DNA of 64,000 bases, from assembly GCA_947501445.1 (NCBI GenBank), contig CANMVS010000002.1:496001-560000 (forward strand), given 5' to 3'. A program made the position numbers and the translations under genes. Within the stretch, counting starts at the first letter, position 1, and each line of letters opens with the position of its first letter. This document shows positions 56,104 through 58,221 of the stretch, piece by piece. This DNA is from an uncultured Rhizobiaceae group bacterium. GTDB taxonomy: Bacteria; Pseudomonadota; Alphaproteobacteria; Rhizobiales; Rhizobiaceae. Below the pieces are notes generated by a model, which saw only the letters and a program-made list of their open reading frames with translations, made no database searches and was not told the origin of the DNA.

Positions 56104-56526
56104 ATGAAACGAGCGCTTCCCTGGACGATCGTTGTCCTGTCCGTGCTGGCAACAGCCTTTCCGGCACTTGCGCAGGATGTCACTGCTGGTGAAACGGTCT
56201 TCAAGAAATGCAAGGCCTGCCACAAGGTGGGCGATGATGCGAAAAACGGCGTAGGACCGCATTTGAACAATGTGGTTGGCCGCGCCGCCGGATCTGTCGA
56301 CGGATATAAATACGGCAAAGGCATGAAACAGGCCGGGGCAAACGGCCTGATTTGGACGGATGAGTTAATCATCGACTATATTACTGATCCAAAAACCTTT
56401 TTACGCACTTATCTTGATGACCCCAAGGCCAAAGCCAAAATGACCTTCAAGCTCAAAAAAGAGCAGCAACGCATCGATGTACTTGCCTATGTGAGAACCT
56501 TTTCTCCGGATGCACCAGCCGACTAA
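56104..56526 (+). CDS. cytochrome c, class I
   Basis: This is a periplasmic mono-heme cytochrome c of 140 residues. The signal peptide ends PALAQD. The heme motif CKACH is near residue 38 and the Met axial ligand is probably in KAKMTFKL. GVGPHLNNVVGRAAGS is the typical family segment (cytochrome c2/c550 type). It probably shuttles electrons between the bc1 complex and oxidases. Intergenic repeat copies flank it on both sides. Confidence 0.93.
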   Translation: MKRALPWTIVVLSVLATAFPALAQDVTAGETVFKKCKACHKVGDDAKNGVGPHLNNVVGRAAGSVDGYKYGKGMKQAGANGLIWTDELIIDYITDPKTFLRTYLDDPKAKAKMTFKLKKEQQRIDVLAYVRTFSPDAPAD

Positions 56527-56841: not shown

Positions 56842-58221
56842 CTAGCGTCGCACCTCTTCGGGGAGGAAGAACATATAGTCCGTCTCCTCGGCCCCGAGGT
56901 GGCAATCATGGCAGAATGTCATTGCAGCACTGCCAGCACCGCCGGTCAGACCAACAGTTGTTCCGCCCGGCATAACCATCGCGTAACGCCAGTCTGCCGT
57001 CTCGGCGTTAAAGCCACGGGTCATTTTTTCCATGATGAACAACGGGCCTATAGAAGCCTGTCCTTTGGCATCCACCACAAAACTGGCCTTGGCTGCCGTC
57101 GTTCCGATTGGCATAACAGGTTCTTCACCATATTTGCCGTAGGCAGCAGAGCCAATCTTGTTGGTGTAATTCACCACGAACCTGTTGCCGTGTGTTGCGC
57201 TCGGATAGGCATGTTTTGAGAAGTGGTCAAAACCCTGCCACTTGTTGACAGCCCAATGTCCACCGCCCTTGTACTGAGCGCCCATTTCGGACTTCAGACA
57301 ATCGTATAGGGCAATGACTTCTTCCGGTCCCAGATTCAGATCATCCGGGTCAGCTGCCGCTGAACTCGCTCCACACGGATTGCAGGGGTTGCAAGGATTG
57401 CAGGCACCTGCCGCGCATGGATTTTTTGCTGCGCAAGGGTTGCATGGATTACAGGCAGACGCCTTTTTGGCAGCACATGGATTGCAGGGATTGCAAGCTC
57501 CGCAGGCTGACTTTTTGGCCGCACAAGGGTTGCACGGGTTGCAAGCCGATGCCTTTTTGGCGGCGCAAGGGTTGCATGGATTGCAAGCTGAGGCCTTTTT
57601 GGCAGCACAGGGGTTGCATGGATTGCACGCACCGCAGGCTGATTTTTTCGCTGCACAGGGGTTGCAAGGACTACAGGCCGAAGCCTTCTTCGCTGCACAG
57701 GGATTGCAGGCTGATGCATTCCAAAGCCGTGGAACGTAGCATTCGGTTGCGCCCAGTCCGGCACTTGCACCACAAGGGTTGCAGGGATTGCACGGGTTAC
57801 AGGCTGACGCTGCGCAAGGGTTGCATGGGTTACAGGCACCACAGGCTGATTTCTTGGCTGCACATGGGTTACATGGATTGCAGGCCGAAGCCTTTTTGGC
57901 CGCACAGGGATTACATGGATTGCAGGCACCACAAGCGGATTTTTTGGCTGCACATGGATTGCAGGGGTTACAGGCCGAGGCCTTTTTGGCTGCGCAGGGG
58001 TTGCACGGGTTACAGGCACCGCAGGCTGATTTCTTGGCTGCACACGGGTTACATGGATTGCAGGCCGACACTTTCTTTGCCGCACATGGATTTGCCGTGC
58101 ATGCCGCGACACTTGGCGTTGCCACGCCTGCCGAAAGCATGAATGCCGCGCCGGCTGCCCCTCCCAGAGCAAGCGGCATAATCGCCACCGTCGTTAATAA
58201 TTTTGATTTGAATGTTGCCAT
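56842..58221 (-). CDS. CNPC-repeat protein with C-terminal cytochrome P460 domain
   Basis: This is an exported protein of about 459 residues in three parts. A signal peptide runs to about residue 38 (ATPSVAAC). A repeat region from about 40 to 300 is made of about 15 blocks of [11 protein letters not shown] alternating with SACGA or ASA spacers, about 55 cysteines in all, broken once by the unrelated [13 protein letters not shown]. The last 150 residues resemble cytochrome P460, with FCHDCH (CxxCH heme motif) near the end and DYMFFLPEE after it. I chose ATG at 58221, with GGAGGA upstream. The N-terminal repeats could bind metals, form disulfides or cross-link; this is inference. The domain call is from motif shape, not a search. 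Confidence 0.75.
57370..58100 (-). repeat. tandem CNPC coding repeats inside the P460 gene
   Basis: In-frame tandem array of about 15 units of 33-48 nt, with codon variation between units, encoding [11 protein letters not shown] plus either SACGA or ASA. The array is interrupted once by a non-repeat segment around 57710-57760. Regular GC-rich repetition also creates long spurious open frames on both strands. Confidence 0.9.

Follow-up and report, generated by a model that had tools for sequence, protein, structure and literature searches.

A cytochrome P460 with a cysteine-repeat arm and the linkage of exported Cys-repeat proteins to DUF6969

The window (the whole stretch of 64,000 nucleotides that was analysed, from an uncultured Rhizobiaceae group bacterium) encodes a protein, here called CNPC-P460, in which an arm of CNPC-type repeats precedes a cytochrome P460 domain with conserved active-site positions. 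CNPC-P460 is a member of a widespread, modular set of Cys-repeat proteins that are exported, some with a heme domain and others without, and that are strongly linked to genes for DUF6969 (PF22308). The pairing holds across the class and has a sharp distance profile, and in the genus of the window two Cys-repeat genes each have a separate DUF6969 copy. Our tentative reading, held with somewhat less than even confidence, is that DUF6969 may help exported Cys-repeat proteins to mature, following a logic like that of bufferins but without MNIO, and that the arm would bind a soft metal.

The cysteine-repeat arm and the P460 domain

The following features could be assigned to CNPC-P460:
56842..58221, minus strand: CNPC-P460 gene, 459 aa (open reading frame and translation; purifying selection in congeners)
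58102..58221, minus strand: N-terminal hydrophobic export signal, about residues 1-40 (sequence judged by eye)
57763..58101, minus strand: Cys-repeat array 1, including SACGACNPC units (translation and counts)
57724..57741, minus strand: CYVPRL, the conserved C-x-[VI]-P-R break between the two arrays (motif counts in P460 ORFs)
57352..57714, minus strand: Cys-repeat array 2 (translation; TRF arrays span both repeat blocks)
56845..57324, minus strand: cytochrome P460 domain (PF16694 and profile matches to PDB)
57088..57090, minus strand: Lys that aligns with Lys70, the residue crosslinked to heme in N. europaea P460 (2je2 alignment, E 0.02)
57028..57030, minus strand: Glu aligned with the distal Glu96 of N. 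europaea P460 (2je2 alignment, E 0.02)
56899..56913, minus strand: CHDCH heme c attachment motif (sequence)

The reading frame opens with an ATG at 58221, with GGAGGACGGAGG immediately upstream, and closes with a stop at 56842-56844. From the N terminus, the hydrophobic leader is followed by array 1, CYVPRL, array 2 and the P460 domain with CHDCH; the by-eye signal suggests that the protein is exported. A preliminary description had proposed this architecture of signal, Cys-repeat arm and P460 domain, and translation, Pfam and the PDB profile matches bear it out. The gene coordinates given there were right, and the strand, left unstated, is minus. The estimate of about 15 repeat blocks and 55 cysteines agrees with our count of 15 CNPCNPC, next to 30 CNPC and 12 C[NS]PCAAK, and with the 55 of 58 cysteines that fall in the arm of about 250 residues (residues 40-290). 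The repeat codons are mixed, as had been described (32 TGC and 23 TGT for Cys, all four codons for Pro). At the DNA level the CNPCNPC pattern was found 15 times in the 6.8-Mb genome, always inside this gene, and gave zero matches in the reversed control, so the repeat does not arise by chance.

The possibility of an assembly artefact, raised in the same description, was ruled out by relatives in independent genomes and by purifying selection. Comparison of the P460 domain between the window gene and four congeners yielded dN/dS of 0.024-0.176 for 8 of 10 pairs, with dS not computable in the other two and above 1 in six of the eight; these low values indicate that the protein is maintained. The cysteine arm had no match in Pfam, NCBIfam or PDB. 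Pfam on the whole protein returned P460 and one chance match outside the arm (E 0.29), with no metallothionein-like family, and a BLAST search of the protein against 72,556 plasmid records, with the low-complexity filter on, gave no match.

The family check that had been suggested for the C-terminal domain was positive: PF16694 (Cytochrome_P460) scored 28.7 bits on the domain alone, above the curated cut-off of 27, and 26.6 bits (E 8.6e-6), just under it, on the whole protein. All 15 aligned relatives matched the family at E 0.01 or better. With the whole protein as query no PDB sequence was found at E 1; a profile of the 15 relatives retrieved five PDB sequences, all labelled as P460 or as a P460 domain, at E 1e-4 to 1, namely 7ead and 7s5o (E about 1e-4), 8gar and 2je2 (E about 0.02) and 9hrk (E 1). 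In the active P460 of N. europaea, Lys70 forms the crosslink and Glu96 is the distal residue (available text of PMC11928373). The aligned Lys and Glu are each invariant in 15 of 15 relatives, as are C138, C141 and H142 of the CxxCH motif, and K[ADP]SF is present in 45 of 48 Cys-repeat P460 ORFs. The window domain is thus likely to have Lys and Glu where active enzymes have them, likely rather than proven because the 2je2 match is weak (E 0.02), and it may itself be active.

With the known cytochromes P460 (PF16694; 2je2 of N. europaea, McP460 of M. capsulatus) the protein has in common the CxxCH motif, the family match and the positions of the crosslinking Lys and distal Glu; it differs from them by the 250-residue Cys-repeat arm placed in front and by the linkage to DUF6969. 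Cytochromes c'-beta share the fold superfamily but lack the crosslinking Lys, whereas the window protein has Lys at that position. The c'-beta TtCP-beta (7ead) shows Phe there in our alignment, and Phe61 is given for it in the available text of PMC11928373.

Linkage of exported Cys-repeat proteins to DUF6969

Two further genes flank CNPC-P460:
58453..59196, minus strand: DUF6969 (PF22308) gene, 247 aa from the first ATG, upstream and co-directional with a gap of 231 bp (251 bits against 27; conserved neighbour)
56104..56526, plus strand: c550-like mono-heme cytochrome c, convergent, with an export signal by eye (PF00034, 35 bits)

The preliminary description treated CNPC-P460 as a single oddity. 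This part did not stand, as the protein is one of a widespread set of exported Cys-repeat proteins linked to DUF6969; its interpretation was sound for the architecture and the P460 identity and missed the DUF6969 partner. For the repeats it had proposed metal capture, disulfide-locked fibres or a redox handle for the heme domain, each of which is conceivable from the sequence. Across 24 DUF6969 sequences the residues H62, D67, D70, H80, H82, E88, H91, H93, H125, E150, D199, E216 and D217 are invariant. In the fold search DUF6969 matched a single PDB entry, at E 0.14; its matches to other Pfam families were weak and scattered, the best being GGACT in 3 of 24 members (E 0.03).

Among the 47 loci compared first, the window included, 24 have DUF6969, and in 23 of these 24 a CNPC-type gene lies in the same stretch. 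The class was then represented by one set of 385 genomes used for both searches, 90 of which have PF22308. DUF6969 was present in 34 of the 37 genomes with at least two NPCNPC matches versus 56 of the 348 others (Fisher 5e-21, a p value that treats genomes as independent and ignores kinship). The threshold of two was picked after the counts had been seen; without it, DUF6969 is present in 38 of the 50 class genomes that match, and among those with a single NPCNPC match it is found in 4 of 13. The exceptions among the 37 are G184 and G356 (93% and 91% complete), in which CNPC-P460 fusion genes are present and DUF6969 was not found, and G218, with two matches far apart.

Within the genus, CNPC-P460 occurs in five of eight genomes (G000, G002, G003, G006, G007) with arms of differing length, 22-32 NPC. 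One DUF6969 copy, A, is confined to these five and is adjacent to CNPC-P460 in each. A second copy, B, occurs in all eight, and a CGAC repeat lies beside it in 4 of 4 cases among the matches listed: an exported CGAC-repeat peptide in G000 and CGAC-coding runs in G005, G006 and G007. As the degenerate Cys pattern used in the genus is mostly background, only runs beside copy B were considered. The peptide in G000 (contig C10; L172:5629-5844) has 72 residues and lies 179 bp before the second DUF6969 (L172:6023-6757). Plasmids carry similar pairs. In Skermanella mucosa DUF6969 is paired with an ANPCAAK peptide, with a sigma factor and NrsF nearby, and in Burkholderia glumae a KCGAKC peptide lies 100 bp upstream of DUF6969, with a sigma factor and zf-HC2 nearby. 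On two Azospirillum plasmids DUF6969 is located beside Mla genes, with no Cys-repeat peptide annotated.

The distance profile was obtained for 95 DUF6969 loci drawn from 100 stretches, the other five of which have CNPC but no DUF6969 ORF; the set leaves out at least G419 and three places with DUF6969 of fragment length. Genes were called as longest ORFs. Cys repeats were recognised by home-made strict and lenient tests, the lenient one devised after the misses of the strict one had been seen, and its matches L174 and L258 look false. The 359 kb that lie within 2 kb of DUF6969 contain 53 exported Cys-repeat ORFs; there are 2 in the 168 kb between 2 and 3 kb away and 7 in the 710 kb between 3 and 9.5 kb, so that the density in the nearest zone is about 15 times that at 3-9.5 kb. 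At 47 of the 95 loci such an ORF is found in the nearest zone, two of the 47 being doubtful. For P460 the counts are 27 up to 2 kb, 1 between 2 and 3 kb and 4 farther out; for FGE-like (PF03781-like) genes they are 26 in the first kilobase, none in the second, 1 in the third and 1 farther out. When the three kinds of gene (Cys-repeat, P460 and FGE-like) are taken together under the strict rule, 50 of 95 loci have at least one within 2 kb and 45 have none. On a DUF6969 tree of 100 rows, built by a quick method, partner labels cluster (32 changes versus 51 when shuffled), and partners have been gained or lost many times, from which it follows that the pairing is not one inherited block.

DUF6969 might also be no maturation factor at all, being a co-regulated cytosolic stress protein next to an arm that works alone. 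Its frequent occurrence without a visible Cys-repeat gene and the existence of Cys-repeat cytochromes without DUF6969 would fit such a role; the tight adjacency and the pattern of one copy per partner in the genus do not, and we consider it improbable.

Other neighbours of DUF6969 recur less often. The c550-like cytochrome c of the window is a possible electron partner of CNPC-P460. In 17 of 98 loci a cytochrome c cluster lies no more than five genes from DUF6969, and no kin of the window cytochrome was seen beside CNPC-P460 in four congeners (L145-L148). TRAP-type transporter genes, named by eye, form a cluster near DUF6969 in 15 of 98 loci (for example L211, L219 and L223). The product of L121:6258-6722 is an exported protein of 155 residues, cupredoxin-like by eye and with no Pfam match, look-alikes of which are found near DUF6969 in 6 of 98 loci.

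Cys repeats as modules on several heme proteins

The preliminary description had suggested a search for CNPC-repeat proteins across genomes with a comparison of repeat number. The scan of named genomes gave at least 116 stretches with CNPCNPC, many of them single, chance-like matches. Named and other genomes together supplied 48 P460 ORFs in which the domain is preceded by five Cys or more (L276 repeats the window gene); the number of these Cys ranges from 6 to 60, with a median of 32. Named carriers include genomes or MAGs of Aestuariispira, Kiloniellaceae, Rhodospirillales and Sneathiellales. The C-x-[VI]-P-R motif is present in 36 of the 48 versus 2 of 84 NPC ORFs without P460, where the window gene is counted twice, the 84 are not freed of duplicates and some of the 12 P460 ORFs without the motif are truncated by contig ends. 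In L095, L115, L121 and L122 an exported CNPC-only gene adjoins the fused gene. In two ORFs (L204:4215-5162 and L310:9308-10210) a CNPC repeat interrupts the P460 domain itself, separating the Lys position from that of the Glu.

The repeats could, on the other hand, be structural, a disulfide-linked coat or tether that keeps the heme domain in the envelope. Such a role would be compatible with the free variation in repeat length (6-60 Cys), with the Lys-rich AAKK linkers and with CNPC proteins such as those of L133 and L309, which contain no further domain and start, by eye, with a lipoprotein-like signal. It leaves unexplained both the conserved CxVPR motif and the separate DUF6969 copy for each Cys-repeat gene, and appears rather improbable to us.

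A survey of the phylum (299 genomes) detected PF22308 in 11 genomes and NPCNPC in 52. Family f206, outside the class of the window, accounts for 41 of the 52 and gave no DUF6969 match. In the eight f206 stretches that were read, NPC repeats stand in front of a cytochrome c in seven and a small NPC-only exported protein is present in seven, with a multiheme cytochrome close in most. The f206 repeats show that Cys repeats can work without DUF6969, and the NPC-cytochromes that they are modules placed on several heme proteins. In L038:4080-4994 (Marinobacter) and L302:6268-7113, a cytochrome c with CNPC-type repeats at both ends adjoins DUF6969; in L302 a DUF3179 neighbour was typed as well. NPC-repeat cytochromes in L294, L295 and L300 adjoin a methyltransferase and a DUF3641 radical SAM protein (typed in L300, by eye in the others), neighbours that we take to have an arsenosugar role. 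The DUF6969 of B. glumae (L316) is near genes annotated as arsenosugar glycosyltransferases.

The main rival to a metal-binding arm matured by DUF6969 is a thiol or sulfane-sulfur arm, in which the CxxC repeats would either bear persulfide or switch between the thiol and disulfide states, and the heme domain (of P460 type in this protein, of SoxA/TsdA type elsewhere) would oxidise or reduce the cargo. Both NPC-repeat cytochromes c that were typed, those of L293 (f206) and L302, are of the SoxA/TsdA type. A cluster of membrane proteins resembling the Sulf_transp protein (PF04143) of L082 occurs near DUF6969 in 9 of 98 loci. L304:4080-7388 offers a sulfur context, with sulfur-transporter-like membrane proteins (by eye), a small NPCGPKK peptide, DUF6969, a rhodanese (typed) and an ArsR-type regulator (by eye) in one direction, the last two adjoining DUF6969 and the small NPC protein. 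Against this, P460 is known for hydroxylamine and NO chemistry and not for sulfur, no sulfur gene was noticed adjoining the window gene, and most of the 98 loci are without one. We regard the sulfur arm as unlikely.

Comparison with bufferins and a possible role of DUF6969

Bufferins are exported Cys-rich precursors modified by MNIO; precursors with EGKCG repeats reach up to 58 Cys, and fusions to cytochrome c or FGE domains are reported in a few cases (available text of PMC12452194). The window system resembles bufferins and Buf_EGKCG/oxazolins, which are MNIO-modified RiPPs, in that a Cys-rich precursor with an export signal (by eye in CNPC-P460) has a neighbouring partner gene and a few cytochrome c or FGE-like fusions (same source, available text). 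It differs in having DUF6969 as the partner instead of an adjoining MNIO, and CNPC instead of EGKCG as the motif. Among 23 chosen CNPC genomes, 12 have MNIO (PF05114), on a different contig from the CNPC gene or separated from it by at least 0.5 Mb; the search gave no match in the remaining 11. MNIO was therefore rejected as the partner at the window locus, and CNPC-P460 is not a member of the bufferin family.

As a further comparison, FGE/SUMF1 (PF03781) was considered. Of the 95 DUF6969 loci, 26 encode a PF03781-like protein no more than 2 kb away; its Cys pattern is CGxC in 8 of 9, and no such protein was noticed in the window neighbourhood. The sulfatase motif is CxPxR. The conserved motif of the arm is C-x-[VI]-P-R, and the idea that FGE acts there on a canonical CxPxR is unsupported.

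For a role of DUF6969 in maturation, the following sequence of events can be envisaged. DUF6969, encoded next door and placed in the cytosol by eye, would act on the arm there before export, as an enzyme that modifies its cysteines or as a chaperone that loads or protects them. Once exported, the arm would bind soft metal in the manner of bufferins, Cu(I) being the most likely ion, and the attached P460 heme may carry out redox chemistry on hydroxylamine or NO, perhaps handing electrons to a soluble cytochrome c. The evidence that we count for such a role comprises the pairing across the class, the distance profile, the genus copies, the plasmid pairs, the invariant His, Asp and Glu of DUF6969, the Lys and Glu of P460, and the FGE-like neighbours together with the bufferin fusions. 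Counted against it are the fusions without DUF6969 in G356 and G184, the 4 of 13 single-match genomes, family f206, the 45 of 95 bare loci and the Mla context in Azospirillum; the sulfur-transporter-like genes (9 of 98 loci) fit a sulfur role equally well, and the cytochrome c neighbour is not conserved in the genus. A more specific form, which is possible though doubtful, would make DUF6969 the founder of a new class of enzymes that work in the cytosol, independently of MNIO, to modify Cys-repeat proteins exported by Sec, with one copy per substrate, and CNPC-P460 a heme enzyme with such a modified, metal-loaded arm.

The P460 domain is of a known kind; the arm and the pairing with DUF6969 were not found in the literature searched, in part as partial listings. 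No paper joining cytochrome P460 and a cysteine-rich repeat was retrieved, the letters of the repeat gave irrelevant matches only, and the name DUF6969 appeared in no paper found. In the available main text of a 2025 P460 review (PMC11928373), 'cysteine-rich' and 'fusion' had no match.

The P460 family gains an architecture with a Cys-repeat arm, and DUF6969 gains a hypothesis for its function and a link to a large set of exported Cys-repeat proteins. That DUF6969 repeatedly travels with these proteins suggests that cysteine-rich proteins outside the cell membrane may be made or used in a way not recognised so far, and points to a non-MNIO route for periplasmic Cys-rich metal or redox buffers. 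If DUF6969 is indeed an enzyme, this would be a new maturation system.
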